DNA of 42,760 nt, from positions 1 through 42,760 of the forward strand of contig LNEZ01000040.1 in assembly GCA_001464215.1 (NCBI GenBank), in the 5' to 3' direction. Under the pieces are notes generated by a model that saw nothing but the letters and a program-made list of their open reading frames with translations, had not been told where the DNA came from and ran no database searches. How positions within the stretch are numbered: the stretch's first letter is position 1; every line of letters starts with the position of its first letter. The DNA comes from Rhizobiales bacterium Ga0077548. Lineage in GTDB: Bacteria; Pseudomonadota; Alphaproteobacteria; Rhizobiales; Xanthobacteraceae. Both the position numbers and the translations under genes were made by a program. Of this stretch, positions 5,055 through 31,954 are shown piece after piece.

Positions 5055-5730
5055 CGTACAACGTTTCGATCATTTCGAAATCGTCGTCGACGGCTTTGAA
5101 CTTCTTGCGCAGCCGCTTGATATGGCTGTCGATAGTGCGGTCATCGACATAGACCTGATCGTCATAGGCGGCATCCATCAATGCGTTGCGGCTTTTGACG
5201 ACGCCGGGGCGCTGCGCGAGCGCCTGCAGGATCAAAAACTCGGTGACCGTGAGCGTGACGGGATCACCCTTCCAGGTGCAGGTGTGGCGCTCGGGGTCCA
5301 TCTTGAGCTGCCCGCGCTCGAGTACCTTGGCTGCTTCTCCGGTTTCCTTCTGCGGGAGCTGATCTTTCGGGATGAAGCGGCGCAGTACGGCTTTGACACG
5401 CTCGACAAGCAGGCGCTGCGAAAAGGGTTTGCGGATGAAATCGTCGGCGCCCATCTTGAGGCCGAACAATTCGTCGATCTCTTCGTCCTTGGAGGTGAGG
5501 AAGATCACGGGCAGGTCCGATTTCTGGCGGATGCGGCGCAGGAGCTCCATGCCGTCCATGCGTGGCATCTTGATATCGAGGATCGCGAGATCCGGCGGGC
5601 TCGATTTGAAGCCTTCGATCGCGGAGGCACCGTCGGTGAAGGTGAGGATCCGGTAGCCTTCGGCTTCGAGTGCGATCGAAACGGAGGTCAGAATGTTGCG
5701 GTCGTCATCCACAAGCGCGATGGTCGGCAT
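5026..5730 (-). CDS. chvI: Response regulator ChvI (BvrR-like)
   Basis: A 234-aa OmpR/PhoB-family regulator. The receiver domain holds the acidic triad DDD at 8-10, the phosphoacceptor Asp52 ([13 protein letters not shown]) and Lys101 (IRKPF). A winged-helix DNA-binding domain covers about residues 140-234, ending [15 protein letters not shown]...GVGYRFKEA. The ATG at 5730 has a perfect AGGAG five bases upstream. It is the first gene of the chvI-chvG-hprK-EIIA-HPr operon. The 144-bp gap to the divergent HugZ-like gene must hold its promoter. Confidence 0.95.
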
Positions 5731-15256: not shown

Positions 15257-15411
15257 AACCGTCTCCGCACCAAAGGGTGCGGCTCGTGCCTGTTTGGGAC
15301 ACTAGCCGCTGCATATTAAATTCAGGTGCAAACCGGGGGCCGGATTTCCGGCTTTTGACCGGGTAGAGTGCAACGGCTATTTCGCGGACGATTTTAGCGA
15401 ACCCATTAAGA

Positions 15412-17895
15412 ATGAATTCACCACGAGAGCCGAACCACGGCACCTTTCCGGTCGATGAAGCGCTGCCGGCGCTCAAAGACGCGTTGCGTGCGCGCAAGGC
15501 CGCCGTGCTCGTGGCGCCGCCGGGTGCGGGCAAGACCACGCGCGTGCCGCTGGCACTTCTTAACGAACCCTGGGTCAAGGGCGGAAAAATTCTCGTTCTG
15601 GAACCGCGCCGGATCGCGGCGCGTTCGGCAGCCTCGTTCATGGCGAATTCCATTGGCGAGAAGCTCGGCGACACCGTCGGCCTGCGTGTGCGTTTCGGCT
15701 CGAAGGTGAGTGCGAAGACCCGGATCGAAATGATCACGGAAGGTATCTTCACGCGGCTCGTGCTCGACGATCCGGAATTGAAGGAGATCGCCGCCGTCAT
15801 CTTCGATGAGTTTCACGAGCGTTCGCTTGATGCCGATCTGGGCTTGGCGCTCGCGCTCGATGCACAGCGTGGATTGCGCGACGACCTGCGTATTCTTGTG
15901 ATGTCGGCCACGCTTGATGGCGCGCGGGTGGCGAAGTTGCTGGGCGATGCGCCGGTGATCGAAAGCGAGGGCCGCGCGTTTCCGGTCGAAACCAAGTATC
16001 TCGGGCGTGATGTGCGTACACCGATCCATCAGGAGATGGCGGATACACTCGCGAAAGTCGCATCGAACGAAGCAGGCTCGCTGCTCGCATTCTTGCCCGG
16101 CGTCGGCGAAATCCGCCGCACTGCGGATTTTCTTTCCGAGCGCATCCGCGACAAGACCATCGACATCGTTCCGTTGTACGGCGCGCTCGATAGCGACGTG
16201 CAGGATAAAGCAATCGAGCCGTCGCTAGCCGGGCGCCGCAAGATCGTGCTCGCAACCTCGATTGCGGAAACCTCGATCACGATCAAAGGCGTGCGTGTGG
16301 TGGTCGATTCCGGCCTCGCGCGCGTGCCGCGTTTTGAGCCCGATCTCGGTCTGACGCGGCTCGAAACCGTCCGGGTCTCGCGCGCTTCCGCCGATCAGCG
16401 CCGAGGTCGCGCGGGCCGCACCGAGCCTGGCGTTTGTTATCGCCTCTGGGACGAAGAGCAGACGCGGAGCCTGCTTCCCTTCGCGACACCCGAAATCCTT
16501 GCCGCCGATCTGACAAGTCTTGTGCTCGATCTGGCGCAATGGGGCGTGCATGACCCGGCCCAACTCTTATGGCTCGATCCGCCGCCGGTCGCTGCCATCA
16601 ATGAAGCGAAATTGCTGCTCGCTTCGCTCGGCGCCATCGACAATAGCGGCGCGATTACTGCGCTCGGCAAAAAGCTCGCGAAGTTGCCCCTGCATCCGCG
16701 CCTCGCCGCGATGATTGTGGCGGCTTCAGAAGAAGATAACGCGCTGCTTGCCGCCGAAATCTCAGCCGTCGTTTCCGAGCGCGGCCTTGGCGGCAACGAT
16801 CCTGATCTTTCTCACCGCATTTCCGAGTTTCGCCGCGACAGGTCCCGGCGTGGCGATGAGGCGCGCAATCTTGCAAAGCGCTGGGCCGAGTCCGCAGGCG
16901 GAAAAATGCGCGAGACCTCTCCTGCCCACGCCGGAAGCCTGATTGCGCTCGCCTATCCCGATCGTATCGCCAAGCTTCGCGCCGAGCGCGGCGGGGCGTT
17001 TTTGCTCGCCAACGGCCGTGGCGCGAAAGTTGAGCTGACCAACGCGCTTTCCCGCGAGGAGTATCTCGCCGTCGCTGAAATCGCAGGAGCCGCACAGGAA
17101 GGCCGCGTTCTGCTTGCCGCGAAGATCAGCGAAGCTGAAATCGCTTCGCGCTTTGCAAACAAGATCACGCAAACAGAAGAATCCGTCTTCGATACCAAAT
17201 CCCGTGCAGTTCGTTGCCGTGCAGCGAAGAAGTATATGTCGCTCGTTCTCAGCGAGCGTCCGCTGAAAGTGCAAGCGAACGACGAGACTGCGAAAGCCTT
17301 GGCGCAAGGCGTTGCATCGCTCGGCATTGAAGCACTTTCTTTTTCTGCCGCCGCCGCACGCTGGCTGGAGCGCGTTCGCTTTCTCCGTAACGCCGAAGGC
17401 GAAGAATGGCCCGACCTGTCGCCGCAAACGCTCACGCAGAGTACTGAGACATGGCTTGCACCTTTCCTTGCCGGGAAAACCTCACTCAATGAAATTTCCG
17501 CTGGCGATGTTTCAAATGCGCTTCACGCGCTGATCCCGCACGATCTCGCGCGCCGTCTTGATGCCGAAGCGCCGGATCGTTTCGTAGCACCTACCGGATC
17601 GGAACTGGCCATCGATTATTCGGCGGAAGCCGGCCCCACCATCTCCGTCAAAGTGCAGGAATTGTTTGGGCTCTCGAAGCATCCTTCCGTCGCCGCGGGG
17701 CGTATCCCGCTTGTGCTTTCGCTGCTCTCTCCCGCTGGCCGCCCGATCCAGGTGACCCGCGATTTGCCGGCCTTCTGGCGCGGCTCATGGGCCGACGTGA
17801 AGAAGGAAATGCGGGGGCGTTATCCACGCCATGTCTGGCCTGACGATCCGGCCGCGGCCGCGCCGACGCGACGCGCCAAGCCGCGCGGAACTTGA
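15412..17895 (+). CDS. hrpB: ATP-dependent helicase HrpB
   Basis: An 827-aa DEAH-type helicase of unknown cellular role in most bacteria. Walker A is APPGAGKT (35-42), the Walker B box is DEFH (132-135), motif III is SATLDG (165-170), and motif VI is QRRGRAGR (329-336). A helicase-associated HA2 region and the HrpB-specific C-terminal domain follow. The length matches the family (800-850). The start is an ATG at 15412 without a strong Shine-Dalgarno. It is probably transcribed alone or with the downstream protease gene 97 bp away. Confidence 0.95.
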   Translation: MNSPREPNHGTFPVDEALPALKDALRARKAAVLVAPPGAGKTTRVPLALLNEPWVKGGKILVLEPRRIAARSAASFMANSIGEKLGDTVGLRVRFGSKVSAKTRIEMITEGIFTRLVLDDPELKEIAAVIFDEFHERSLDADLGLALALDAQRGLRDDLRILVMSATLDGARVAKLLGDAPVIESEGRAFPVETKYLGRDVRTPIHQEMADTLAKVASNEAGSLLAFLPGVGEIRRTADFLSERIRDKTIDIVPLYGALDSDVQDKAIEPSLAGRRKIVLATSIAETSITIKGVRVVVDSGLARVPRFEPDLGLTRLETVRVSRASADQRRGRAGRTEPGVCYRLWDEEQTRSLLPFATPEILAADLTSLVLDLAQWGVHDPAQLLWLDPPPVAAINEAKLLLASLGAIDNSGAITALGKKLAKLPLHPRLAAMIVAASEEDNALLAAEISAVVSERGLGGNDPDLSHRISEFRRDRSRRGDEARNLAKRWAESAGGKMRETSPAHAGSLIALAYPDRIAKLRAERGGAFLLANGRGAKVELTNALSREEYLAVAEIAGAAQEGRVLLAAKISEAEIASRFANKITQTEESVFDTKSRAVRCRAAKKYMSLVLSERPLKVQANDETAKALAQGVASLGIEALSFSAAAARWLERVRFLRNAEGEEWPDLSPQTLTQSTETWLAPFLAGKTSLNEISAGDVSNALHALIPHDLARRLDAEAPDRFVAPTGSELAIDYSAEAGPTISVKVQELFGLSKHPSVAAGRIPLVLSLLSPAGRPIQVTRDLPAFWRGSWADVKKEMRGRYPRHVWPDDPAAAAPTRRAKPRGT

Positions 17896-20177: not shown

Positions 20178-20771
20178 TCAGGTGCAGCCTTGCAGCGTGC
20201 CTTTGTCGCGGGTGATGCAGGTCACGAGGCGCGGGCGGATATAGAGTTGGTCCGTCAGCGTCAGCGTGCCGCCCGTGAAGGCGCCGCCGATGGTCGGCGT
20301 GAAGTTATAGCTGACCTCTGCCCAGATCACCGTAGTGTTCGGCGTATTCAAGCCGGTCGGCAGAACCACGGTCGAGTTTGTCACGCGCGCGGTATCCTGA
20401 AAGCCTTCGCCCCAGCCGACGGTCGCAGTGCCGGCGGCGTTGATTCGCACGCTGGTAATCTTGATCTTGAGCAGGTTGCTCCAGGTATTCGGTGCGAACA
20501 CTGCCTTAGCAGCGTCGAAGATCGCTGTGACCTCCGAGTCCGTAAGGCTGTTATCGCGCGCAACCAGGTCGCCGACCGTATGCGTAACGAGGACGACCTT
20601 GCGTTTTGCGATGATCGCTTGCGTGATTGCGGTGCCGCCCAGATAGAGCACGGCCATAAACGGCAGGATGATCGCGAATTCTACCGCGGACACGCCGCGT
20701 TTATCGCGCGCAAAGCGCGCGAGCTTTCCGCGCAGCGTGCCAAAAAATGCCGAGAGTTTAAGCGGGGTCAT
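20178..20771 (-). CDS. TadE/TadG-like pseudopilin (second of pair)
   Basis: A 197-aa protein with a class III-type prepilin leader: RDKRG cut before VSAVEFA, with Glu31 at position +5, followed by a hydrophobic helix (about 32-52). The rest is a periplasmic domain with predicted beta structure. TadE-like pseudopilins are processed by the same peptidase as the Flp pilin and are needed for pilus assembly. At this size it lacks the von Willebrand-like domain of long TadG proteins. The ATG at 20771 overlaps the upstream gene's stop as ATGA, indicating translational coupling. Confidence 0.87.
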   Translation of the reverse strand: MTPLKLSAFFGTLRGKLARFARDKRGVSAVEFAIILPFMAVLYLGGTAITQAIIAKRKVVLVTHTVGDLVARDNSLTDSEVTAIFDAAKAVFAPNTWSNLLKIKITSVRINAAGTATVGWGEGFQDTARVTNSTVVLPTGLNTPNTTVIWAEVSYNFTPTIGGAFTGGTLTLTDQLYIRPRLVTCITRDKGTLQGCT

Positions 20772-21343
20772 TGATAGGGCTCATTACGGAATGCGACTGC
20801 GGACATCAGCAGGCGCTTGCCGCTCGGCGTATCGGCGAGATCGAGACCGAACGTGCGGAGAATAAGCGGCCACTCGTACATGACGCGCACGACAACGATG
20901 TCGCCGGGACCGCCGGTTTGAAAATGAAACCCGGTATCGTCGACCTGACCGTTAGCTTTGAAGGTAGGCTTGCTGAGGTTCGCGGTCGCGAAAGCGCCGG
21001 ACGTGCGCACGTCGATGATCATGCCGGTACTGCAGTTGAACAATCCGAGCACGCGCGCACACAGCTCCTGCTTGAAGCGGGTCTGATCGAAAGTCTGCTT
21101 CTGCGCCTGTCCGGTCATAATGAGCCGGCTGGTGTCGTGTACCGCCGTCTCGAGTACCTGACTTGCCCAGAATACGAAGGCGAGTTCGATGATCGCGAAC
21201 AGCATCGCGATGAACGGCACGGCGACGATCGCAAACTCGACCGCCGCGGCACCATCGTTCTTTCGGCCGAAGCGAATGACCAGACGGCGCAGGCCGCGCG
21301 TCGCGCCGGTAGCCTTCTCTTTGCGAATTTCAATGCCGAACAT
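20768..21343 (-). CDS. TadE-like pseudopilin (first of pair)
   Basis: A 191-aa pseudopilin. The basic N-terminal tail RLVIRFGRKNDG is followed by the processing site G31 before AAAVEFA (Glu36 at +5) and a membrane helix at about 37-59. Two cysteines in the periplasmic part (LCARVLGLFNCS) may form a disulfide. It is first in a two-gene operon with the 197-aa partner and is transcribed opposite to the main pilus genes. The 117-bp upstream gap holds a CtrA-like site. Confidence 0.88.
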   Translation of the reverse strand: MFGIEIRKEKATGATRGLRRLVIRFGRKNDGAAAVEFAIVAVPFIAMLFAIIELAFVFWASQVLETAVHDTSRLIMTGQAQKQTFDQTRFKQELCARVLGLFNCSTGMIIDVRTSGAFATANLSKPTFKANGQVDDTGFHFQTGGPGDIVVVRVMYEWPLILRTFGLDLADTPSGKRLLMSAVAFRNEPYQ

Positions 21344-21433
21344 GACCTGGGGTCCGCGCTCTATAATGACGCGCTTGTAGCGGATACCGCTTGAAAATTT
21401 GTTGAACCGCCCATCCGGAAGGCGCGGGCGGTT

Positions 21434-21449
21434 GTTAGCGATCTGTTAA
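21434..21449 (-). promoter_or_regulatory. CtrA-like box upstream of the tadE pair
   Basis: On the minus strand this reads TTAA-CAGATCG-CTAAC, one mismatch from the CtrA consensus TTAA-N7-TTAAC. It lies about 91-106 bp upstream of the tadE start at 21343. CtrA is the alphaproteobacterial cell-cycle regulator known to activate pilus genes in Caulobacter. The match is seen directly; the function is inferred. Confidence 0.4.
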
Positions 21450-21460
21450 CGAAACACGCC

Positions 21461-21925
21461 TCAGCGCGCCTGCGCCGCGGCCGGAGTACCTGCCGAAAGA
21501 CCGTTGCGCGTGCCATTCTGCGTAACTACAGCGTCAAAAACAGCGGTGGCATCGCCGGGAACCAGCGTGCGCTGGCAGTTTGGAGCGCAGCTCAGGGTCT
21601 CTCGTTCGGCACCGCGGAAAACGGTGAGGCCGCTGACCGGCGCAGAAACCGTGATGGTGTGTTCGGCAATCACGGTGCCTTTGCTGTCCAGCACCATGAG
21701 ATTGGTCGTGCCGTAGCCTTTGCCGGTTACGACGAGAAGTCCGCCGGCCTGCAACGTCCCGTCGGCGATCGAGGGATTGCCGATAATGATGGTGGAGACA
21801 CGATCGGGCAGGCGCAAAAGGCGAGCCTGATCCAGAATAACGGAGACTACTTCGGCCAATGCGAGGTTGGGTGCGATGACAAGGCCGCACAAGACGAACA
21901 GGGTCTTGATCTGATTACGCAGCAC
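21461..21925 (-). CDS. Stand-alone secretin N-domain pilus protein
   Basis: A 154-aa exported protein with an N-terminal signal peptide (KTLFVLCGLVIAPNLALA, cut near residue 24). It is followed by one domain that aligns by eye with the N-terminal pilus domain of CpaC: LRLPDRVSTIIIGNPSIADG here against DLPRDAKDVLIANPAIANAV there, and GTTNLMVLDSKGTVIAEHTITV against QTNIVFFDESGQQIAAYDIEV. It lacks the secretin pore domain. The GTG at 21925 is chosen because GGAGG sits five bases upstream. It lies 117 bp ahead of the tadE pair on the same strand and may share its regulation. Confidence 0.85.
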   Translation of the reverse strand: MLRNQIKTLFVLCGLVIAPNLALAEVVSVILDQARLLRLPDRVSTIIIGNPSIADGTLQAGGLLVVTGKGYGTTNLMVLDSKGTVIAEHTITVSAPVSGLTVFRGAERETLSCAPNCQRTLVPGDATAVFDAVVTQNGTRNGLSAGTPAAAQAR

Positions 21926-22232
21926 GATTGCCTCCAGCACTGACGCGACGAATGCAGCCAATCTCGCCGATAATGGTGAACGAACTCCAAACGAAAGGCG
22001 CCTGCAGCGGCCGGCGCGAACGGTTCGAACCGCGCGAAACCACGCCCCTCAACGATTCTCGGATCGGCTCAGTGGAACGTTAACTCTGTTTCATTTCGCC
22101 CTGAAAACATGGGATTTCTACGATCAGATTAACCGTGGCGAAATCGGACCACTGTAGTTTCACCCTCGTTCGATCGGGCAAAAAGTCCGACGGATTTGCA
22201 GAGAGCCAACTAGGTTCAAGGAGCCTTGAAAC
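21926..22232. promoter_or_regulatory. Divergent promoter region of the Flp pilin and N-domain gene
   Basis: This 307-bp non-coding stretch separates the minus-strand N-domain gene from the pilin gene. It contains a perfect 12-bp palindrome CGGTTCGAACCG (22021-22032) and two TTAAC half-sites (22080-22084 and 22129-22133) that could be CtrA half-boxes, though neither has a second half at the right spacing. An AAGGAG ribosome-binding site at 22219-22224 precedes the pilin ATG. I see no convincing gene in it; the pilin promoter must lie here. Confidence 0.5.
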
Positions 22233-22397
22233 ATGAAGAATATCGCTCGTTTTCTTAAGGACGAGTCCGGCGCGACTGCCATCGAGTATGGCCTGATCGC
22301 CGCCTGCATCTCGGTCGCAATCATCGCGGTCGTGCAGGGCGTCGGCACCAAGCTGACCAACACGTTCACCTCGATCTCGAACGGCCTGGGCAACTAA
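22233..22397 (+). CDS. Flp family type IVb pilin
   Basis: A 54-aa major pilin subunit of the Tad/Flp pilus. The short basic leader MKNIARFLKDESG is followed by ATAIEYGLIAA; cleavage after Gly13 leaves Glu at +5 and Tyr at +6, the diagnostic Flp motif. The remaining hydrophobic helix (CISVAIIAVVQGVG) packs the fibre core. Processing is expected from the prepilin peptidase encoded 157 bp downstream. The ATG at 22233 has AAGGAG upstream. A terminator right after the stop implies that the pilin is made from its own abundant transcript. Confidence 0.96.
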   Translation: MKNIARFLKDESGATAIEYGLIAACISVAIIAVVQGVGTKLTNTFTSISNGLGN

Positions 22398-22419
22398 CAC
22401 CAGCCTTCGAAACCGAAAC

Positions 22420-22457
22420 GAAGGCCCCGGCGCAAGCTGGGGCCTTCCGCTTTTTTA
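22420..22457 (+). terminator. Intrinsic terminator after the pilin gene
   Basis: GAAGGCCCC (22420-22428) pairs with GGGGCCTTC (22439-22447), giving a 9-bp G+C-rich stem with a 10-nt loop, followed after CG and C by six T residues (22451-22456). It lies 22 bp beyond the pilin stop and separates the pilin from the assembly genes. Confidence 0.9.
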
Positions 22458-22554
22458 GTTCCCGTCACGCTTCAATCTCTCGTTTCGATTCACGCTTCCC
22501 TTAGGCTTTACCGATTAGATCGCCTTCAGTTTCCCGGCAGCCGGTTTGAGCCAG

Positions 22555-23061
22555 ATGATCCTCGAAATCCTCGTACTCGGTCTTTTTCCCGCGGCCATGG
22601 CTTTTGCCGCGGCGAGCGATCTCGTCTCGATGACGATCTCGAATCGCATTTCGCTGGCGTTAATAATTGGTTTCTTTTTGATGGCCTGGCTGACTGGCAT
22701 GGGCTGGAGCGATGTCGGCCGTCATCTCCTTGCCGGCGTTGTCGTTCTGGTTGTTGCCTTCGGGTTCTTTGCGCGCGGCTGGATCGGCGGCGGCGACGCG
22801 AAGCTTGCAGCGGCGACGGCGCTCTGGCTCGGGTTCTCGCATCTCATGGAATATCTGCTGATCGCGTCGATTGCGGGCGGCATCCTCACCTTGCTGTTAT
22901 TGCAGCTCCGCACGCTGCCGATGCCGCAAGTCTTGGCCAGACAGAAGTGGATCGCACGGCTCCACAATTTCGAGACCGGCATTCCCTATGGAATCGCACT
23001 CGCGATTGCGGGCCTTTTGGTCTACCCGGAGACCTCATTCATGAGGGCGCTTACGGCCTGA
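22555..23061 (+). CDS. cpaA: Prepilin peptidase, A24 family (CpaA/TadV)
   Basis: A 168-aa integral membrane aspartic peptidase that removes the leader of the Flp pilin and of TadE-like pseudopilins. The two catalytic aspartates are Asp22 in AASDLVSMTISNRIS and Asp81 in GGGDAKL (78-84). About five membrane helices are predicted and there is no N-methylation domain, as usual for TadV/CpaA. The ATG at 22555 is preferred; a TTG at 22546 would add three residues. No strong ribosome-binding site is seen before either. It begins the assembly-gene series. Confidence 0.92.
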   Translation: MILEILVLGLFPAAMAFAAASDLVSMTISNRISLALIIGFFLMAWLTGMGWSDVGRHLLAGVVVLVVAFGFFARGWIGGGDAKLAAATALWLGFSHLMEYLLIASIAGGILTLLLLQLRTLPMPQVLARQKWIARLHNFETGIPYGIALAIAGLLVYPETSFMRALTA

Positions 23062-23104
23062 CCCTAAGTGCAAGTTCCCGTTAATTAAATTCCTCTACTG
23101 CTCA

Positions 23105-23120
23105 TTAACCATAAGTTGAC
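23105..23120 (+). promoter_or_regulatory. CtrA-like box upstream of cpaB
   Basis: TTAACCATAAGTTGAC fits TTAA-N7-TTAAC with one mismatch and also contains the CtrA half-site TTAACCAT. A TTAATTAA lies 16 bp further upstream (23081-23088). The box is 82-98 bp before the cpaB start, in a 141-bp gap after cpaA, suggesting a second promoter inside the locus. Confidence 0.45.
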
Positions 23121-23163
23121 CCTTAGCTGGTGAAATCCGGCAAGTGGCAGCCCCGCGACCCAC

Positions 23164-23178
23164 ATCCGGGTCCCGGAT
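23164..23178. promoter_or_regulatory. 15-bp palindrome in the cpaB leader
   Basis: ATCCGGGTCCCGGAT is a perfect 7-bp inverted repeat around one base, ending 24 bp before the cpaB ATG. It could be an operator or a small leader-RNA hairpin. No T-run follows, so it is not an intrinsic terminator. Confidence 0.35.
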
Positions 23179-23202
23179 CAGCACGAGTGGAAGAGTGAGC
23201 GT

Positions 23203-23991
23203 ATGAAACCCGCGCGTTTAATTGTTCTCGGCATCGCCGTCACGGCAGGTGCTGCCGCCTTCATGTTGTCGGGCAATCGTTCACCTGCGCCGATTGTGCA
23301 GCAGATCGTCCGTCCCGTATCCGAAACCGTCGAAATCCTCGTCGCGAAGAACGACATCGCTGTCGGCCGCGCGCTTTCGCCGGAGGACATTACCTGGCAG
23401 GCCTGGCCGGTTGCCGCCGCAGGCCCGCTCTTCATCCGCAAGACCGCGCGTCCGGACGCGCTCAACGAATTCAAAGGCACGGTTGCTCGCGCGCCTTTCG
23501 TTGCCGGCGAACCGATGCGTGAAGAAAAACTGATTCGTGCCGACGGCTCGGGTTTCATGTCTGCGATCTTGCCCGCCGGTATGCGTGCGGTATCGACCGA
23601 AATTTCCGCGGAAACCGGCGCCGGCGGTTTCATTCTTCCGAACGATCGCGTGGACGTTCTGCTTACCCGGCGCGAACAGGGGCAGGGAAGCGCCGAGTCG
23701 ATCCTGACGGAAACGATTCTCCGCAACATTCGCGTGCTCGCCATCGATCAGACCGTCGAAGAAAAAGGCGGCCAGAAAGTTGTCGTCGGCAAGACCGCGC
23801 TGCTCGAGCTCGGACCGCAGCAGGCCGAGACACTCGCAATGTCGCGCCAGCGCGGCACGCTTTCGCTAGCACTCCGCTCGCTCGCGGATGCCAAGCCGAA
23901 CGTTGCCAGAGACAGCGAAGAACAAGAACGCAATTCGAGCCGCGTGAACTTCGTTCGCTTCGGCATCAACTCAACGCAGACCACGAAGTAA
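23203..23991 (+). CDS. cpaB: Flp pilus assembly protein CpaB (RcpC)
   Basis: A 262-aa periplasmic protein with an N-terminal signal or anchor segment (RLIVLGIAVTAGAAAFML, 5-22). It has a SAF domain (about 42-110, VEILVAKNDIAVGRALSPEDI), then the CpaB/RcpC domain (about 115-235) with NDRVDVLLTRR and ILRNIRVLAIDQ. CpaB is thought to help the secretin channel, possibly by binding peptidoglycan or gating. The C-terminal 25 residues are polar. The ATG at 23203 has only a weak GAG upstream. It is followed 21 bp later by cpaC. Confidence 0.93.
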   Translation: MKPARLIVLGIAVTAGAAAFMLSGNRSPAPIVQQIVRPVSETVEILVAKNDIAVGRALSPEDITWQAWPVAAAGPLFIRKTARPDALNEFKGTVARAPFVAGEPMREEKLIRADGSGFMSAILPAGMRAVSTEISAETGAGGFILPNDRVDVLLTRREQGQGSAESILTETILRNIRVLAIDQTVEEKGGQKVVVGKTALLELGPQQAETLAMSRQRGTLSLALRSLADAKPNVARDSEEQERNSSRVNFVRFGINSTQTTK

Positions 23992-24012
23992 GCGAAGGGA
24001 TCGAGGCTGACG

Positions 24013-25467
24013 ATGCAAATGCCGCTAGCCGCAAAAGCAGGGTTAACATTCGCTTTCCTGGCGCTGACGCTATCTTCCGTTTTGCACGCGGCCGAGCCGC
24101 AGCTTGCCGGTCCGCCGAATGCTGCGCCGGCGATCCAGCGTGCGCAGCCGCAGGCGCCGGTGATCCATACGCGCGGCAACTTTTTGGCGCTCGGGGTCGG
24201 CAAGTCGATCGTGGTCGATCTGCCGCGCGATGCCAAAGACGTACTGATCGCAAATCCGGCGATCGCCAACGCCGTGATCCGTTCCGCGCGCCGCGCCTAC
24301 CTGATCGGCGTGAAAGCAGGGCAGACCAATATCGTCTTCTTCGACGAAAGCGGCCAGCAGATCGCGGCCTACGACATCGAGGTCGCGCTCGATGCGGTTG
24401 GTGTGCGGGCGGCAATCCAGCGGCTTGCGCCGACTGCGCAGGTCAAGGTTGATTCGATCGGCGACAGTATCGTGCTCTCCGGCTCGGTCGCCTCTGCCGC
24501 CGAATCTCAGCACATCTTCGACACCGCCGTGCGCATGGTCGGCGATGTCAACAAGGTCGTGAACGGCCTTACCATCCGCGACCGCGAGCAGGTGATGCTG
24601 AAGGTGACCGTCGCCGAAGTGCAGCGGAATATCCTGAAGCAGCTCGGTGTCGATCTGAATGGCGCCAGCATTAATGTCGGCAGCGCGGTTGTGAATTTTG
24701 AGAACACCAATCCGTTCTCGGCGCAGAACACATTGCTTTCGACGAGCAACATCCGCCCGACATTGACCTTGCCGAATGGCGGCACCGTCAGCGCGACCAT
24801 TCGCGCGATGGAGCAGGCCGGCGTCATGCGCACGCTTGCAGAACCCAATCTCACCGCCATCAGCGGTGAATCCGCGCGCTTCCTCGCGGGCGGCGAGTTT
24901 CCGATTCCCGCAGGGCAAAGCTGCGATGCCAACACCGGTCAGTGTCAGGTGCAGATCCAGTTCAAGCAGTTCGGTGTCGCGCTCGAGTTCACGCCGGTCG
25001 TGCTTTCCGAAGGCAAGATCAGTATGCGGGTCTCTACCGAAGTCAGCGAGCTTTCCTCGGAAGGCGCGATCCGTCTTTCCAGCGTGACGATCCCGGCACT
25101 TCGCGTTCGCCGCGCCAACTCGACCGTTGAGCTTTCCTCGGGCGCTTCGCTGGTGATGGCCGGCCTTTTGCAGGAGCAGACCAAGCACAATCTCAACGGT
25201 CTCCCAGGGCTGATGAATCTTCCCGTGCTCGGCACGCTGTTCAAAAGCCGCGACTATCTCTCCGGCCAGACCGAACTCATGATCATGGTGACGCCGTATG
25301 TCGTGCGCGGGGTTGCGCAGCAGGAAATCGCCCGCCCTGACGATGGCTTCTCCAATCCTTCCGATCAGTCGGCTGTTCTGCTCGGGCGTCTCAATCGAAT
25401 CTACGGCGTGCCCGGTTCGAACGAGAAGAATCGTCTGAAGGGCAACTACGGTTTCATCCTGGATTGA
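24013..25467 (+). CDS. cpaC: Tad pilus secretin CpaC (RcpA)
   Basis: A 484-aa outer-membrane secretin. It has a signal peptide (residues 1-26, ending SVLHA), an N-terminal pilus domain (about 48-125), a BON-like segment (about 130-195, VKVDSIGDSIVLSGSV), and the secretin pore domain (about 240-430). The last contains MRTLAEPNLTAISGESARFLAGGEFPIP and LMIMVTPYVV. It forms the ring through which the pilus leaves the cell. The ATG at 24013 has GAGG six bases upstream. cpaD follows within 17 bp. Confidence 0.95.
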   Translation: MQMPLAAKAGLTFAFLALTLSSVLHAAEPQLAGPPNAAPAIQRAQPQAPVIHTRGNFLALGVGKSIVVDLPRDAKDVLIANPAIANAVIRSARRAYLIGVKAGQTNIVFFDESGQQIAAYDIEVALDAVGVRAAIQRLAPTAQVKVDSIGDSIVLSGSVASAAESQHIFDTAVRMVGDVNKVVNGLTIRDREQVMLKVTVAEVQRNILKQLGVDLNGASINVGSAVVNFENTNPFSAQNTLLSTSNIRPTLTLPNGGTVSATIRAMEQAGVMRTLAEPNLTAISGESARFLAGGEFPIPAGQSCDANTGQCQVQIQFKQFGVALEFTPVVLSEGKISMRVSTEVSELSSEGAIRLSSVTIPALRVRRANSTVELSSGASLVMAGLLQEQTKHNLNGLPGLMNLPVLGTLFKSRDYLSGQTELMIMVTPYVVRGVAQQEIARPDDGFSNPSDQSAVLLGRLNRIYGVPGSNEKNRLKGNYGFILD

Positions 25468-25483
25468 GTGTTTGGAGCGTAAG

Positions 25484-26206
25484 ATGTCAGTAATCAGCGT
25501 CCTTCCCAGCCGTGTTCGCGCGGCACTCCTGATCGGGCTCGGCTCGTTCGCGCTCGTCGGCTGTCAGACCGACCGGATCGTGACCGGCACGGTGCCGTCG
25601 GACTACCGCGACCGCCACCCTATTCAGGTGAATGAAGGCACGCGCTCGGTGCAGATGTTCGTAGGCTCCGGCCGTCTGGGCCTGACGCCCGAACAGCGGG
25701 CGCTTGCCGGCGGTTTTGCTTCGCAATGGCGCCGCCACGGTTCAGGCCCGATGACGATCGAATTGCCGGCCAATGTCGCGAACGAAGTTTCGTCAAGCCG
25801 TACCGTGCGCGAATTGCGCAGCTTGCTCGTTTCTTCGGGCGTCCATCCGCGCGCGATCCAGATTCAGGCTTATCAATCCGATTCACCGTCGAATGTCGCA
25901 CCGATCCGGCTGACCTTTGCGGCGATCACCGCGCAGGTCGCAAGCCGCTGCCACGCCGGTCAGGAAAATCTAGGCACCAGTCAGAATTTTGAAGGCCAGC
26001 AGAATTACTCGATGCGTAACTTCGGCTGTGCGACCCAGCATAATCTCGCTGCCCAGGTCGCCAATCCGGAAGATCTCGTGCAGCCGCGCGCCGAGCAGCC
26101 TTCTTACGCTGCGCGCCGCAAGACTGTTATCGAGAAGTACCGTCAGGGTCAGGACCCTTCGACGAATTATCCGAACTCCGCAAAGGCGAGCTCGATAGGT
26201 CAGTGA
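25484..26206 (+). CDS. cpaD: Pilus lipoprotein CpaD
   Basis: A 240-aa lipoprotein of the CpaD family, likely the pilotin or partner of the CpaC secretin. The signal ends in the lipobox LVGC with Cys27. The mature part begins QTDRIVTGTVPSDYRDRHPI and contains CATQHNLAAQVANPEDLVQPR near the C terminus, which is characteristic of the family. The ATG at 25484 is supported by GGAG six bases upstream; a TTG at 25472 would add four residues but overlaps this ribosome site. It sits between cpaC and cpaE. Confidence 0.92.
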   Translation: MSVISVLPSRVRAALLIGLGSFALVGCQTDRIVTGTVPSDYRDRHPIQVNEGTRSVQMFVGSGRLGLTPEQRALAGGFASQWRRHGSGPMTIELPANVANEVSSSRTVRELRSLLVSSGVHPRAIQIQAYQSDSPSNVAPIRLTFAAITAQVASRCHAGQENLGTSQNFEGQQNYSMRNFGCATQHNLAAQVANPEDLVQPRAEQPSYAARRKTVIEKYRQGQDPSTNYPNSAKASSIGQ

Positions 26207-27471
26207 TGAGAGCCACTCCCGTACTCGACACTCATATCCCTGCGATCGAACCGGAGCGCCACATCGCTCCGGTGCCGCGCATCACGATTCAGGCCTTCTG
26301 CGAAACGCCGGAGCTCGCACACGCCGTCCAGGGCGGTGCGGCGGACCGGCGCATGGCTCGCGCGCACGTGAAAGTTTCGATGGGCGGGCTGCCGGCTGCG
26401 GAAGAAGCCTATCGCGGCTCGGCTACGCCGAACGTAATTTTCATCGAGTATAACGGTCACGCCAACGCGCTCTTGGAAGGCCTCGATCGGCTTTCGCAAA
26501 GCTGCGACGCGGGGACCAAGGTCGTTGTCGTCGGCCGCGTGAACGACATCATTCTCTACCGCGAACTCGTGCGCCGTGGCGTGAGCGATTATCTTGTCGC
26601 GCCGCTTGCTCCGCTCGACATCGTCGCCTCGATCTCCGGTCTTTACGGCGCTTCCGACGCAAAGCCGGTCGGGAAGGTTGTCGGCGTGATCGGTGCTAAA
26701 GGCGGCGTCGGCGCTTCGACGGTCGCGCACAATATCGGTTTTGCGATCGCCCGCGATCTTTCGATCGACGCGGTCGTTGCCGATCTCGATCTCGCTTTCG
26801 GTACCGCCGGTCTCGACTTCAACCAGGACCCGCCGCAGGGAATTGCCGACGCGGTGTTTTCGCCGGATCGCGTGGACGGCGCTTTCATCGACCGCCTGCT
26901 TTCCAAGTGCACGGATCACCTGAGCCTGCTCGCAGCGCCCGCGACGCTCGATCGCGAATATGACATTTCGCCGGAAGGTTTCGAGCCGATCTTCGATACC
27001 TTGCGCGCGTCGGTGCCCTATATCGTTCTCGACATCCCGCATATTTGGAGCGGCTGGGCCAAGCGCGCGATGCTCGGCGCCGACGATATTCTGATCGTGG
27101 CTTCCCCGGACCTCGCCAATCTTCGCAACGCGAAGAATATGTTCGATCTTGCGAAATCCTCCCGGCCGAATGACCGCGCGCCGATGTATCTCTTAAATCA
27201 AGTCGGTATGCCGAAGCGCCCCGAAGTGAAGACCGCGGATTTTGCGAAAGCCTTGGGCGCGGAACCGATTGCCTCGATCCCGTTTGAACCGCAGCTTTTC
27301 GGCACCGCCTCCAATAACGGCCAGATGATCGCGGAAGTCGCAGCCAAGCATAAGACCGCGGACACTTTCCTTCAGATCGCGAAATCCATCACCGGCCGTA
27401 CTGAATCGAAGAAGCAAAAGAACGATCTGCTTTCGCCGCTGCTCTCGAAGATCAGAGGCCTGCGGAAGTAA
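26206..27471 (+). CDS. cpaE: Pilus localisation ATPase CpaE/TadZ
   Basis: A 421-aa protein with an N-terminal atypical receiver-like domain (about 27-145) and a MinD/ParA-type ATPase domain. The deviant Walker A is VIGAKGGVGASTVAHN (KGGVGAST, 165-172), and VADLDLAFGTAGLDFNQDP follows. TadZ/CpaE proteins place the pilus machine at a cell pole. The ATG at 26206 overlaps the cpaD stop as TGATG, showing translational coupling; a GTG at 26203 is an alternative. cpaF begins 21 bp downstream. Confidence 0.93.
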   Translation: MRATPVLDTHIPAIEPERHIAPVPRITIQAFCETPELAHAVQGGAADRRMARAHVKVSMGGLPAAEEAYRGSATPNVIFIEYNGHANALLEGLDRLSQSCDAGTKVVVVGRVNDIILYRELVRRGVSDYLVAPLAPLDIVASISGLYGASDAKPVGKVVGVIGAKGGVGASTVAHNIGFAIARDLSIDAVVADLDLAFGTAGLDFNQDPPQGIADAVFSPDRVDGAFIDRLLSKCTDHLSLLAAPATLDREYDISPEGFEPIFDTLRASVPYIVLDIPHIWSGWAKRAMLGADDILIVASPDLANLRNAKNMFDLAKSSRPNDRAPMYLLNQVGMPKRPEVKTADFAKALGAEPIASIPFEPQLFGTASNNGQMIAEVAAKHKTADTFLQIAKSITGRTESKKQKNDLLSPLLSKIRGLRK

Positions 27472-27492
27472 TTCGCGAGTTCGGGGTCCGGA

Positions 27493-28998
27493 ATGTTCGG
27501 TAAACGAGGAAACAGCGACGGCGGCGTGCGGGAAATGCCGCACGTACCGGCACAGCCGGCACCAGCTGCCGCGCCTGCGCAGATGCTGCCGCCTGCGACG
27601 GTCTCTGACTTTGCGCCGAAAAACGGAGCGAGCGCTCCCGCCATGCAGTCGCCGCCGTTGGCGCCGGCAGCACCTCCGCCGCCGATGATGAGCAACCAGC
27701 GCTCCGAGACCTTCTACGAGGTCAAAGGGCAGATTTTCGGTGCGCTGATCGAAGCGATCGATCTGACGCAGCTCGCAAAGCTCGAGCCGATTGCCGCGCG
27801 CGAAGAAATTCGCGACATCGTCATCGAAATCATCACCATCAAGAACGTCGTGATGTCGATCGCCGAGCAGGAAGAACTGCTCGACGATATCTGCAACGAC
27901 GTGCTCGGTTATGGGCCGCTGGAGCCGTTGCTCGCGCGCGACGACATCGCCGATATCATGGTGAACGGTGCGAACACCGTTTACATCGAAGTCAAAGGCA
28001 AAATTCAGCAGACCGGAATCCGGTTCCGCGATAACCAGCAGCTTCACAATATCTGTCAGCGTATTGTGAGTCAGATCGGCCGCCGCGTCGACGAATCGTC
28101 GCCGATATGCGATGCCCGCTTGCCGGATGGTTCCCGTGTCAATGTGATCGTGCCGCCGCTCTCGATTGACGGGCCCGCGCTTACCATTCGTAAGTTCAAA
28201 AAAGACAAGCTCAAACTCGCCGATCTCGTAAAATTTGGCTCTGTCTCGCAACAGGGCGCGGAACTTCTGCGTATCATCGGCCGCTGCCGCGTGAACACGC
28301 TGATTTCCGGCGGCACCGGTTCCGGCAAGACCACGCTCTTGAATTGCCTCACCGCGCATATCGATAACGACGAGCGTATCATTACCTGCGAAGACGCAGC
28401 CGAGTTGCAGCTGCAGCAGCCGCACGTCGTGCGCCTCGAAACGCGCCCGCCAAATCTCGAAGGCGAGGGTCAGGTAACGATGCGCGATCTCGTGCGCAAC
28501 TGTCTGCGTATGCGCCCGGAACGCATCATCGTCGGCGAAGTCCGCGGCCCCGAAGCGTTCGACTTGCTGCAGGCTATGAACACGGGCCACGACGGCTCGA
28601 TGGGTACGCTGCACGCGAATAGCCCGCGTGAGGCGCTTTCGCGTCTCGAATCCATGATCACGATGGGCGGCTTCGCGCTTCCGCCGCGTACGATCCGCGA
28701 AATGGTGGTGTCTTCGATCGACGTCATCATTCAGGCGTCGCGTATGCGCGACGGCTCGCGCCGCATCACGCACGTCACCGAGGTGGTAGGCATGGAAGGC
28801 GAGGTCGTCACCACGCAGGATCTCTTCGTGTTCGACTATCTCGGCGAAGATCAGAACGGCAATATGCTCGGCCGCCACCGCTCGACCGGCATCGGTCAGC
28901 CGCGCTTCTGGGATCGTGCGAAGTACTACGGTGAGCAGAACAAGCTCGCGTCGGCGCTCGATGGTGCCGAGATCGACGATGTGTTGGGCCGCTCATGA
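27493..28998 (+). CDS. cpaF: Pilus assembly/retraction ATPase CpaF/TadA
   Basis: A 501-aa cytoplasmic hexameric ATPase that powers pilus extension (and retraction in Tad systems). Residues 18-67 are a disordered Pro/Ala-rich tail. The N-terminal domain (about 75-230) precedes the motor domain with Walker A GGTGSGKT (273-280), the Asp box, and Walker B with RIIVGEVRGPEAFDLLQAMNTGHDGSMGTLHAN. The length is typical. The start is an ATG at 27493. Its stop overlaps the tadB start by 4 bp (ATGA). Confidence 0.96.
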   Translation: MFGKRGNSDGGVREMPHVPAQPAPAAAPAQMLPPATVSDFAPKNGASAPAMQSPPLAPAAPPPPMMSNQRSETFYEVKGQIFGALIEAIDLTQLAKLEPIAAREEIRDIVIEIITIKNVVMSIAEQEELLDDICNDVLGYGPLEPLLARDDIADIMVNGANTVYIEVKGKIQQTGIRFRDNQQLHNICQRIVSQIGRRVDESSPICDARLPDGSRVNVIVPPLSIDGPALTIRKFKKDKLKLADLVKFGSVSQQGAELLRIIGRCRVNTLISGGTGSGKTTLLNCLTAHIDNDERIITCEDAAELQLQQPHVVRLETRPPNLEGEGQVTMRDLVRNCLRMRPERIIVGEVRGPEAFDLLQAMNTGHDGSMGTLHANSPREALSRLESMITMGGFALPPRTIREMVVSSIDVIIQASRMRDGSRRITHVTEVVGMEGEVVTTQDLFVFDYLGEDQNGNMLGRHRSTGIGQPRFWDRAKYYGEQNKLASALDGAEIDDVLGRS

Positions 28999-29975
28999 GT
29001 TCGGTCGCATTCGCATTCCTGATTACGGTCGCAGTCGGCGGCGTGCTCTATGTTTTCATCTATCCGATGATCTCGGGCGAAAAACGCGTCGAACAGCGGA
29101 TGAAGGAAATTTCTGCGGACGAAATCCAGGCGAAGCGCGGACGTAAGGCTGCGGACGCCGTGACGTCGCGCCGGCAGCAGGTCGAAGACTCGCTGAAGCA
29201 GCTTGAAGCCAAGCAGAAGAACGCGAAGAACCCTCCGATCGAGATCCGGATCCAGCAGGCGGGCCTCTCTATCTCCAAGCGCCAGTTCTACATTTTCAGC
29301 GCGCTCGCAGGTGTCGTGAGTTTCGTCCTGATGATGTTTACCTCCGGTATGGGACTTATGCTTGCCGTTCCCGCCGCTATTGCCGGCGGTTTTGGTATTC
29401 CGCGCTGGGTCATCGGCTTTCTGAAGAAGAAGCGTGAGAGCAAGTTCATCAATGAATTGCCGAACGCGATCGACGTGATCGTGCGCGGCGTCAAGGCGGG
29501 CCTGCCGATCGGCGACTGTATCCGAATCATCGCGAACGAAACCTCCGAGCCGGTGAAGGGCGAATTCCGCCAGATCGCCGAAGGGCAGGCGGTCGGTATG
29601 TCGCTGTCGGATTCGGCCGCAAAACTATACGAGCGCGTTCCGCTTCCCGAAGCGAATTTCTTCGGCATCGTGCTTGCGATTCAGCAGCAGGCCGGCGGCA
29701 ATCTCTCCGAAGCGCTCGGCAATCTTTCGCGCGTTTTGCGCGAGCGTAAAAAGATGTCGGCCAAGATCAAGGCGATGTCGATGGAGGCCAAGGCGTCCGC
29801 GGCCATCATCGCTTCGCTCCCCTTTGCCGTTATGGCGCTGGTTTACCTCACAAGCCCCGGCTACATCGAACTGTTGTGGACCACGCCCACAGGCCGCGTG
29901 CTGATGGCTGGCTCGGCGGTGTGGATGCTCATGGGCGTGATGGTCATGCGCAAAATGATCAATTTCGATTTCTAA
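28995..29975 (+). CDS. tadB: Tad inner-membrane platform protein TadB
   Basis: A 326-aa polytopic inner-membrane protein of the GspF/T2SSF superfamily. There are hydrophobic segments near residues 5-25, 98-135, 265-285 and 300-320. The cytoplasmic GspF domain (about 150-275) includes NELPNAIDVIVRGVKAGLPIGDCIR. A Lys/Glu/Gln-rich region (about 35-80) is likely coiled coil. It forms the platform with TadC that the CpaF ATPase drives. It is translationally coupled to cpaF by an ATGA overlap. Confidence 0.94.
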   Translation: MSSVAFAFLITVAVGGVLYVFIYPMISGEKRVEQRMKEISADEIQAKRGRKAADAVTSRRQQVEDSLKQLEAKQKNAKNPPIEIRIQQAGLSISKRQFYIFSALAGVVSFVLMMFTSGMGLMLAVPAAIAGGFGIPRWVIGFLKKKRESKFINELPNAIDVIVRGVKAGLPIGDCIRIIANETSEPVKGEFRQIAEGQAVGMSLSDSAAKLYERVPLPEANFFGIVLAIQQQAGGNLSEALGNLSRVLRERKKMSAKIKAMSMEAKASAAIIASLPFAVMALVYLTSPGYIELLWTTPTGRVLMAGSAVWMLMGVMVMRKMINFDF

Positions 29976-29988
29976 AGGCGAGATTCCG

Positions 29989-30963
29989 ATGGTCGATCTG
30001 ATCTACGAAAGACTTGCCGACGCGCGTTTCATGACGACGCTGTTCACCGCAATCGCGGTGATTGCGACGATCTATACGCTCGCGATGCCCTACATCTCCG
30101 GCGACGGTCTCGACCGGCGCATGAAGACGCTCGCAGTTGAGCGCGGTCAGATTCGCGCCCGCGAGCGCGAGAAGCTTGCGCGCGGCGAGAAGGTCAACCT
30201 GCGGCCGACGCCGAAGGCGTTCATGCAGAATATCGTCGAGAGCCTCGACCTGAAAAAGTGGCTCGGCGAAGAAGAGGCAAAGGCAACGCTGGTGCAGGCG
30301 GGTTATCGAGGGCAGGGACCGCAAGTCACCTTCCTCTTCTTCCGCATGGTCGCGCCGATCGCGATGTTTTTCTTCGCGGTGTTCTACATTTTTATTCTGG
30401 TGCCGATTGCCCAGCCGACGACGGTGAAGATCGGAATGTGCATCGGGGCCGCTTATCTCGGCATCAAGTTGCCGCAGCTCTTTCTGAGAAACGTGATTAC
30501 GCGCCGCCAGCAGTCGATCCGCCGCGCCTTTCCCGATGCACTCGATCTTCTCCTGATCTGCGTGGAGTCCGGTATGTCGATCGACGCCGCCTTCAAGCGC
30601 GTCAGCCAGGAAGTAGGCTCGCAATCGGTGCCGCTCGCGGAAGAGCTCACGCTGACGACCGCGGAATTGTCTTATTTGCAGGACCGCCGTATGGCGTTTG
30701 AGAATCTTGCGAACCGCACCGGCATCGACGGCGTAAAGGCGGTCTGTACTGCGCTGATTCAGGCGGAGCGCTACGGCACGCCGCTCGCGCAGGCGCTTCG
30801 TGTGCTGGCGCAGGAAATCCGCGACCAGCGTATGTCGGAAGCCGAGAAGAAAGCAGCAGCGCTGCCCCCGAAGCTCACTGTGCCAATGATCCTGTTCTTC
30901 CTGCCGGTGCTCTTCGTCGTCATCATGGGTCCGGCCGCGATCCGGGTGATGGAGCTCAAATAA
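29989..30963 (+). CDS. tadC: Tad inner-membrane platform protein TadC
   Basis: A 324-aa paralogue of TadB in the GspF superfamily. A membrane segment near 13-33, a charged region (about 40-100), two helices near 118-160, and a GspF domain with FPDALDLLLICVESGMSIDAAFKRV. The C-terminal helix is FFLPVLFVVIMGPAAIRVM. It starts 13 bp after tadB with AAGGCGAG upstream and is the last gene before a strong terminator. Confidence 0.94.
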   Translation: MVDLIYERLADARFMTTLFTAIAVIATIYTLAMPYISGDGLDRRMKTLAVERGQIRAREREKLARGEKVNLRPTPKAFMQNIVESLDLKKWLGEEEAKATLVQAGYRGQGPQVTFLFFRMVAPIAMFFFAVFYIFILVPIAQPTTVKIGMCIGAAYLGIKLPQLFLRNVITRRQQSIRRAFPDALDLLLICVESGMSIDAAFKRVSQEVGSQSVPLAEELTLTTAELSYLQDRRMAFENLANRTGIDGVKAVCTALIQAERYGTPLAQALRVLAQEIRDQRMSEAEKKAAALPPKLTVPMILFFLPVLFVVIMGPAAIRVMELK

Positions 30964-30992
30964 AAAACGCCCGCGCGAAGCGGGCGTTTTTA
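30963..30992. terminator. Terminator between tadC and tadD
   Basis: ACGCCCGC (30967-30974) pairs with GCGGGCGT (30980-30987) around a GCGAA loop, flanked by an A-run on the left and a T-run on the right. The symmetry lets it serve both the plus-strand tadC transcript and the convergent tadD transcript, which ends at 31012. Confidence 0.92.
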
Positions 30993-31011
30993 TTTAGTCA
31001 ATCCCACGAAT

Positions 31012-31815
31012 TCAGGATTGAGTGCGTGGTGTATTCCGCGGCTGCTGTTGCTGCTTGATGAGATCGCGCAGCGCCGCGATATTTGCGTTGGCTTCTTCCG
31101 GCGGCAGGTCGCCGGCCGCGATCTTCTCCGCTTCATCGAACTTGCGCTGCAGTGCCAGCGAGAGAGCGAGATTCTGTCTCACGCGCTTGTCCGCGCGCGG
31201 GCTTGCTGAAGCGCGGCGCAGGGTGCTTTCCGCGAGCTTCAGTTCTTTCGAGAGAATGTAGGACAGGCCGAGGTTGGAGAGTACCGAAGGTTCTTCCGGC
31301 ACGATCTTGAGCGCGGTCTGATAATAGCGGCGCGCGGCCTTGTAGTTGCCGAGCTGGTCGTTGATTGCGCCTTGCGCGTTCAGGATGCGCCAATCGGGCT
31401 GGTCGGGCGTATGCGCGCGGGAAAGCACGTCAAGCGCCTGTTGCAGCCGGCCGGATTCGGCAAGCGCGCGGCCATATTCGCCGGCGAGCGCCTGATGCTT
31501 AGGATTCTTGATCGTTGCCTGTTCGAGCACGGCGACCGCCTGTGCGTTCTGCTCGGTGCGGCGGAGCGCCTGGGCATAGGAAATCGCGATCTGCGGGTCG
31601 GCGGGTTTTGCCTTGTATTCCTCGCTGAGCCGGTCGAGATCGTCGCGCGGGTTCGGCGCGGCCGTCGAAAACGGGTTCCGGATCGAGCCGGTGATGTCGC
31701 TGCTATTCGGCTTGTTCGCACAGGCGCCGAGCGTAGCTGCGAGCGCCACGACGACGGCGAGCTTTGAAACGCTGCCTTGCAGGCGCTGTTTCGGGGTGGC
31801 GGGATTACACTGCAT
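31012..31815 (-). CDS. tadD: TPR pilus lipoprotein TadD
   Basis: A 267-aa lipoprotein: signal segment about 15-31 with the lipobox LGAC (Cys32), then tetratricopeptide repeats from about 55 to 235. Recognisable units are ISYAQALRRTEQNAQAVAVLEQA, ALAESGRLQQALDVLSRA, LGNYKAARRYYQTALKIVP and SNLGLSYILSKELKLAESTLRRA. The C terminus is Gln/Pro-rich. TadD is needed for Tad pilus assembly and may help position the secretin. The ATG at 31815 has GGAG eight bases upstream. It is transcribed opposite to the main pilus genes from its own promoter. Confidence 0.9.
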   Translation of the reverse strand: MQCNPATPKQRLQGSVSKLAVVVALAATLGACANKPNSSDITGSIRNPFSTAAPNPRDDLDRLSEEYKAKPADPQIAISYAQALRRTEQNAQAVAVLEQATIKNPKHQALAGEYGRALAESGRLQQALDVLSRAHTPDQPDWRILNAQGAINDQLGNYKAARRYYQTALKIVPEEPSVLSNLGLSYILSKELKLAESTLRRASASPRADKRVRQNLALSLALQRKFDEAEKIAAGDLPPEEANANIAALRDLIKQQQQPRNTPRTQS

Positions 31816-31886
31816 ACAAATTACTCCGCACGGGCACGGCCGACGCGCGGCGCCGGAATGCCCGGCAAAGCAATAGAGAATTAACC

Positions 31887-31901
31887 CTAACGGCCAGTTA
31901 A
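31887..31901. promoter_or_regulatory. CtrA-like box upstream of tadD
   Basis: CTAA-CGGCCAG-TTAA on the plus strand (TTAA-CTGGCCG-TTAG on the minus strand) resembles the CtrA consensus TTAA-N7-TTAAC with two departures. It is 72-86 bp upstream of tadD and also lies before the divergent aminopeptidase gene. A further TTAACCCT is at 31881-31888. This is weaker than the boxes near cpaB and tadE. Confidence 0.3.
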
Positions 31902-31954
31902 GCCCGCTTTCATGGGGTTTTTGGGCGTGTTACAGGGCAAAACCACTGGAATCC

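Follow-up and report, generated by a model that had tools for sequence, protein, structure and literature searches.

Among the closest known counterparts of the promoters considered here is that of pilA in Caulobacter crescentus, at which upstream sites for the response regulator CtrA lower and delay expression (PMC11264516). CtrA reads TTAA-N7-TTAA, TTAACCAT or a single TTAA, and its activating sites lie near the -35 element (PMC6180460). At Caulobacter pilA, the -35 site is nearest to the consensus and yet has shown the lower affinity in electrophoretic mobility shift assays, the upstream sites diverge more, and Site 2 is located 31 base pairs (bp) upstream of Site 1 (PMC11264516). CpaA is made there under CtrA and the pilus base is induced by GcrA (PMC11264516); cpaB and cpaD-F have been named as GcrA-induced, and the same genes of Brevundimonas are not regulated by GcrA (PMC7987155). 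Increased CtrA occupancy has been observed at the cpaA and cpaB promoters when cckA is mutated in Caulobacter (PMC6169604), the genes under direct CtrA control in Hyphomonas include 14 for pili (PMC7200025), and pilA1 of Sinorhizobium meliloti is bound by CtrA (PMC4433202). Here we describe CtrA-type boxes at four promoters (tadE, pilA, cpaB and tadD) of the Tad pilus locus in a stretch of 42,760 nucleotides from Rhizobiales bacterium Ga0077548, a member of the Xanthobacteraceae (contig LNEZ01000040.1, positions 1 to 42,760, hereafter the window).

The locus resembles Caulobacter pilA in that a Tad pilin gene carries a CtrA-type site in the presumed -35 region plus upstream sites at a comparable distance. 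It differs in that, judged by sequence only, the core is degenerate and the distal box of tadE is near the consensus, and in that both pilA and the tadE pair have this layout, their distal sites being placed at 49/60 and 43-44 bp, respectively. Hyphomonas neptunium (motif TTAA-N7-TTAAC) and S. meliloti pilA1 likewise stand for pili genes controlled by CtrA; this control has been derived from chromatin immunoprecipitation with sequencing, and the available excerpts of these reports describe no layout of the present kind, whereas our comparison draws on sequence conservation alone. The cpaB promoter of Caulobacter, being occupied by CtrA, is a counterpart of the present one, while cpaA differs, as no conserved box is found ahead of it in Xanthobacteraceae (4/77). 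CtrA control of pili is of a known kind; the present layout has not been found described, and no title among the literature matches listed concerns CtrA sites of Tad promoters in Xanthobacteraceae.

A sequence-only reading of the window had placed near-matches to TTAA-N7-TTAAC 70-110 bp before the tadE pair, cpaB and tadD. All three are present, about 70-105 bp ahead of the starts at 21343 (tadE), 23203 (cpaB) and 31815 (tadD), and we consider it very probable that they and the pilA site are bound by phosphorylated CtrA, which would switch on the separate Tad pilus promoters. Their form, their spacing, their conservation and the presence of an encoded CtrA together suggest CtrA binding, activation and cell-cycle timing at these promoters. 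To follow the boxes through the family, cpaB surroundings have been taken from 80 Xanthobacteraceae relatives, which with the own genome make up 81 of the 96 having a CpaB match. The upstream sets consist of the 250 bp before each gene, with the alignment required to start within 25 residues of the protein start, and comprise, window included, 70 sequences for cpaB, 49 for tadD, 61 for tadE and 74 for pilA. A box has been counted where TTAA-N7-TTAA is matched in at least 7/8 letters, and has been compared against the same halves at other spacers. The gene order of the Tad locus is kept in most relatives and differs or is incomplete in some (e.g., L084, L088, L124, L132, L133, L138, L141 and L142), the last six of which have been dropped from the promoter alignments only.

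Conservation has been found strongest at cpaB and tadD. Upstream of cpaB, a spacer of 7 occurs in 67/70 genomes and 29/29 genera (other spacers 1-34), and the particular form TTAAC-N6-TTGA in 65/70 genomes and 28/29 genera; the element reads TTAACCATnnnTTGAC across relatives and is embedded in a longer conserved block. The tadD box, which had been taken for the weaker site, is the most conserved of all, with spacer 7 in 49/49 genomes and 23/23 genera (other spacers 0-13). It is extended by a third half-site to TTAA-N7-TTAG-N2-TTAA in 47/49, or TTAA-N7-TTA(A/G)-N2-TTAA in all 49, and reads TTAACCnnncnTTAGGGTTAAC followed by a TATTGC-like -10 across relatives. A loose -10 pattern lies at offset 26 in 41/44 of the tadD sequences, and within the half-sites this pattern can be placed at offsets 12 and 18 as well; an offset-26 -10-like element of tadD is probable. 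The region upstream of cpaA, taken as a negative control, has a spacer-7 box in 4/77 genomes and 4/32 genera, with 1-6 genomes at other spacers.

The pilin promoter had been credited with half-sites only, a claim that has given way to a conserved degenerate core in 58/74 genomes. TAnnnT, a clear -10-like element, stands exactly 26 bases after TTAA in these 58 (at other offsets in 6 at most), and all of them have GCAA or GAAA as second half, giving TTAA-N7-G(C/A)AA-N11-TAnnnT. Upstream of this core, TTAA is found exactly at 49 bp in 29/58 and at 60 bp in 18/58, and boxes of at least 7/8 begin at 60 in 24 genomes and at 61 in 3; the window has a single distal half-site, the 49-bp one at 22080. 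The plain count of spacer-7 boxes at pilA (41/74 genomes, 19/31 genera) means little on its own, since other spacers reach 35.

At tadE, 30/61 genomes and 17/30 genera have a spacer-7 box of at least 7/8 (other spacers 0-6). A core CAA-N8-CAA, i.e., a distance of 11 from CAA to CAA, is present in 36/61 (other distances in 15 at most), with TA at +25 in 31; its geometry is that of the pilA core, and its halves are more degenerate. The tadE core itself is no TTAA-N7-TTAA box of at least 7/8; its -10-like element at offset 26 is clear. In the window, the starts of the box and the core are 44 bp apart, with the box upstream, and in the 34 genomes with a tadE core 16 boxes of at least 7/8 occur, every one 43 (3) or 44 (13) bp upstream of the core, a GTTA half being found at 44 bp in 24 and at 43 bp in 5. 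Because of this fixed distance of 43-44 bp, the box reported before, which is indeed present with one mismatch, is a distal site, and the core promoter is located at 21374-21405. Relatives have thus borne out the expected conservation strongly for cpaB and tadD and only in part for tadE (30/61). Between the distal box and the core lies an inverted repeat, AACCGCCC/GGGCGGTT (21405-21433), which possibly terminates the upstream gene; a place for it in the tadE promoter has been rejected, since by eye it is not kept in the same-genus relative L064.

Similar results have been obtained beyond the first set. Outside the family, the comparison covers 36 cpaB loci, including some near-identical pairs, of which 24 keep spacer 7 (other spacers 1-6); the pilA core is found in 14/33 (controls 0-6), and the four tadD loci comprise two with the full element, one with a variant and one with none. 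None of the 14 core-bearing pilA promoters outside the family repeats the distances 49/60, so this spacing looks like a family trait. A hold-out set has been drawn from 48 loci, 18 of which were excluded as already used, 7 as belonging to other families and 1 as a fragment; the removal of 3 duplicates from the remaining 22 left 19 (CpaB identity 54-92%), which are related to the first set and not independent lineages. With patterns fixed beforehand, the cpaB element has been recovered in 11/15 (0 at nine other spacers) and the tadD box in 3/3, with TA at offset 26 in 3/3 and at no other offset tried. The pilA core is present in 15/18 (no more than 1 at any other offset); of these 15, 7 have a distal TTAA at 49 and 6 have one at 60. 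The tadE core is present in 13/16 (no control distance in more than 6), and all 13 carry the distal GTTA at 44.

Within a single genome, the picture is much less distinct. TTAA is scarce in the window, as had been noted (32 observed, 61.9 expected from dinucleotides), and one-mismatch matches to TTAA-N7-TTAAC number 5 against 1.84 expected (standard deviation 1.52), a count that 8/100 shuffles reach. These five include one site counted on both strands and another elsewhere, at 15406, and the match in the tadD gap has a register (31897-31912) different from the one proposed before. The own genome (2.62 Mb in 109 contigs, 90.7% complete) has 63 one-mismatch matches on the forward strand and 71 on the reverse, and the reversed-pattern control is higher (102 and 78); in a 400-kb sample, spacer 7 gives 8 intergenic matches of at least 7/8, and other spacers give 1-10. 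A matrix score at background had been named as a refuting outcome, and plain consensus counts do place the sites near background; such a plain score leaves the matter undecided. In the intergenic DNA of the window, the 4 spacer-7 matches all lie at Tad promoters (two overlap at tadD), and the 0-3 matches at other spacers lie at none. Plain counts close to background are what chance matches in AT-richer promoter DNA would give, but the gaps are only slightly less G+C-rich than the window (0.53-0.57 vs 0.60), and chance does not account for spacer-specific conservation across up to 29 genera, outside the family and in hold-out loci. Because they are conserved in relatives, the sites are more than chance; we assign the chance reading next to no probability. 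In our view the data for cpaB, tadD and the pilA core already refute it, and it stays conceivable for the tadE box of individual genomes. A single-genome score alone would have discarded the cpaB and tadD sites, which are kept by nearly all relatives.

CtrA is encoded in the own genome at G000:C77:1075-1770, with 83% identity to the Caulobacter protein over residues 1-226 and 188/232 in another alignment (81-83%). Its DNA-binding half has long stretches identical to Caulobacter, and the next-best protein of the genome reaches 39%. A ChpT-family protein (HPTransfase) and GcrA are encoded as well. TTAACC half-sites including GTTAACCATTGCTGGTTAGC lie upstream of ctrA (L031; start 1075), as expected for autoregulation. 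Exact TTAA-N7-TTAAC occurs at 18 distinct sites (24 strand-matches), 9 of which adjoin flagellar genes (those of FliO, FlgI and flagellin), the genes of two GGDEF proteins and one EAL protein, or those of a histidine kinase, a ParA-like ATPase and an AFG1 ATPase; the gap at the AFG1 gene is bordered by an acetyltransferase gene as well. Conservation, the encoded CtrA and these nine sites beside flagellar, cyclic di-GMP, kinase, ParA-like and AFG1 genes support the CtrA-type control that the sequence-only reading had predicted. A strict pattern TTAAC-N6-KYRR-N11-TAnnnT, tried as a genome-wide signature, has been rejected with 1 match elsewhere and 1 for the reversed control; it misses pilA (GAAA) and tadD (TATTGC) of the window, so geometry alone is not such a signature.

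The second halves of the boxes (TTGA, TTAG, GCAA, ACAA) are conserved but non-consensus, and further response regulators partly similar to CtrA are encoded in the genome, one of them within the window (5026-5730). Both would fit a different regulator, e.g., another OmpR/PhoB-type protein that reads TTAAC with gene-specific second halves and to which the CtrA likeness is partial. We hold this to be improbable, as TTAACCAT and TTAA-N7-TTAA are published CtrA motifs (PMC6180460), exact boxes adjoin flagellin, flgI, fliO, GGDEF and EAL genes among others, and pili genes are CtrA targets in the three other genera cited above. Several observations weigh against CtrA control of all four promoters. 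By plain match within one genome the sites are near background, the strict shared-geometry pattern hits none of the Tad promoters and equals its reversed control, and the other 9/18 exact sites adjoin genes without an evident CtrA link or not identified. At cpaB the second half is TTGA, conserved yet non-consensus, so that TTAA-N7-TTAA itself is found in 0/70, and the -10 is ambiguous, a loose pattern fitting 38/64 sequences at offset 26 and 44/64 at offset 19. The pilA core reaches 6/8 at best (TTAA plus GCAA), below the 7/8 of a box and with a non-consensus second half, and at tadE the box of at least 7/8 is present in only 30/61 and the core in only 34/61. Elements are lacking in 4/15 cpaB, 3/18 pilA and 3/16 tadE hold-out regions, and at tadE a control distance of 8 is seen in 6/16. 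Another protein could read the degenerate cores.

With CtrA as the regulator, the four promoters seem to fall into two types, one having a single near-consensus site (cpaB and tadD), the other a degenerate core together with a distal site (the pilin and pseudopilin genes). At cpaB and tadD, the near-consensus box would stand in for the -35 element, from which we propose a direct recruitment of RNA polymerase by CtrA. The pilA and tadE promoters would have a degenerate box over the -35 region (second half GCAA, GAAA, ACAA or TCAA), with a better box or half-site further upstream, at a fixed 43-44 bp (tadE) or 49/60 bp (pilA). All four promoters would then fire only during CtrA activity, and expression of the pilin and pseudopilin genes would be adjusted or restrained in comparison with the machine genes. 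It is possible, and proposed only tentatively, that the major pilin and the TadE-type pseudopilins have delay-type promoters and the machine simple ones, which would produce an order of machine first and filament later from CtrA sites alone, with no GcrA step. A delaying role of the distal sites would follow from likeness to Caulobacter, and low affinity cannot be concluded from degenerate sequence, because the lower-affinity pilA site of Caulobacter is the one nearer to the consensus.

That CtrA binds and yet partly represses, above all via the distal tadE and pilA boxes, would be compatible with the proposed CtrA control and is in our estimate somewhat unlikely. The upstream CtrA sites of Caulobacter pilA do reduce and delay expression (PMC11264516), and the gap at tadE (43-44 minus 15, i.e., 28-29 bp) is close to the 31 bp between Site 2 and Site 1; however, the cores lie over the presumed -35 region, which is the activating place, and repression alone leaves the conserved cores unexplained. 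A drive of the pilus base genes by GcrA and CcrM methylation as in Caulobacter, with CtrA playing a minor part, is suggested by the encoded GcrA and the GcrA-induced base of Caulobacter (PMC11264516, PMC7987155). However, GANTC at a shared position near the four promoters has been found in at most 2/65 cpaB, 3/49 tadD, 2/58 pilA and 1/31 tadE sequences, so this route has no visible conserved site there, and the same Brevundimonas genes are not GcrA-regulated (PMC7987155); we rate it very improbable. With CtrA control, a three-site guess from one sequence has become a family-wide, testable promoter pattern with a fixed spacing rule, which predicts CtrA control of pili for Xanthobacteraceae, with Rhodopseudomonas and Afipia among the loci, and extends a pilA-like layout to pseudopilins.

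Table 1. Promoter elements and genes of the Tad pilus locus in the window.
Feature	Position	Strand	Remark
TadE-type pseudopilin pair (20178-20771, 20768-21343)	20178..21343	-	Pfam TadE
tadE core promoter, degenerate TCAAC-N6-TCAA-N11-TACAAG	21374..21405	-	conserved CAA spacing
Distal CtrA-type box of the tadE pair, TTAACAGATCGCTAAC	21434..21449	-	one mismatch to TTAA-N7-TTAAC
Distal TTAA half-site of pilA	22080..22083	+	49 bp upstream of core
pilA core promoter, TTAAC-N6-GAAA-N11-TAGTTT	22129..22160	+	GCAA or GAAA in relatives
pilA, Flp/Fap pilin	22233..22397	+	Pfam Flp_Fap 1.9e-21
cpaB CtrA-type box, TTAACCATAAGTTGAC	23105..23120	+	one mismatch to TTAA-N7-TTAAC
cpaB-cpaC-cpaD-cpaE-cpaF-tadB-tadC	23203..30963	+	domain matches and gene order in relatives
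tadD-like TPR gene	31012..31815	-	Pfam TPR repeats; named tadD by place and inference
-10-like element of tadD, TATTGC	31870..31875	-	loose -10 pattern at offset 26
Third TTAA half-site of the tadD promoter (GGTTAA)	31881..31884	-	kept in relatives
tadD CtrA-type box, TTAA-N7-TTAG	31887..31901	-	two mismatches to nine fixed bases

The surroundings of the cpaB box have further features. TTGAC within the box has been considered as an ordinary sigma-70 -35 element and rejected, a conserved -10 being absent 17 bp downstream. In several relatives an inverted repeat TTGACC-N7-GGTCAA runs across the second half of the box (23116-23134); the window variant has GGTGAA, and the repeat could be a second binding element. 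Directly upstream (23081-23100) relatives have a conserved ATTCGATAC-like block, of which the window copy reads ATTCCTCTAC, and TTAA lies 24 bp upstream of the box in 46/65 genomes. The only other genome match to the cpaB element TTAACCATNNNTTGAC with at most one mismatch is TTAACCATCTGTTAAC before a flagellin gene (L008, G000:C24:17666-17681).

The cpaB box lies between the prepilin peptidase gene (22546-23061, +) and cpaB, the tadD box between tadD and a divergent M17 aminopeptidase gene (start 31955, +), and the tadE box between tadE (20768-21343, -) and a small gene at 21461-21961 (-). Of the pseudopilin pair, 20768-21343 has a clear Pfam TadE match and 20178-20771 one slightly below the cut-off (22.1 vs 22.9); cpaE has been assigned by a sub-cut-off ParA match plus its position in the cluster, and nothing further. 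The product of 21461-21961 consists of the pilus-formation N-terminal domain (PF13629) alone, a domain that the secretin CpaC has as well, and a gene of this type adjoins tadE in most loci checked for gene order. At 15393-15421, a TTAA-bearing stretch with a one-mismatch CtrA-like match lies at the start of an HrpB-type helicase gene, perhaps by chance. Finally, a second, distant CpaB-like protein (29% identity) is encoded in the own genome at G000:C78:102291-102938, and similar second CpaB-like matches are present in many relatives.

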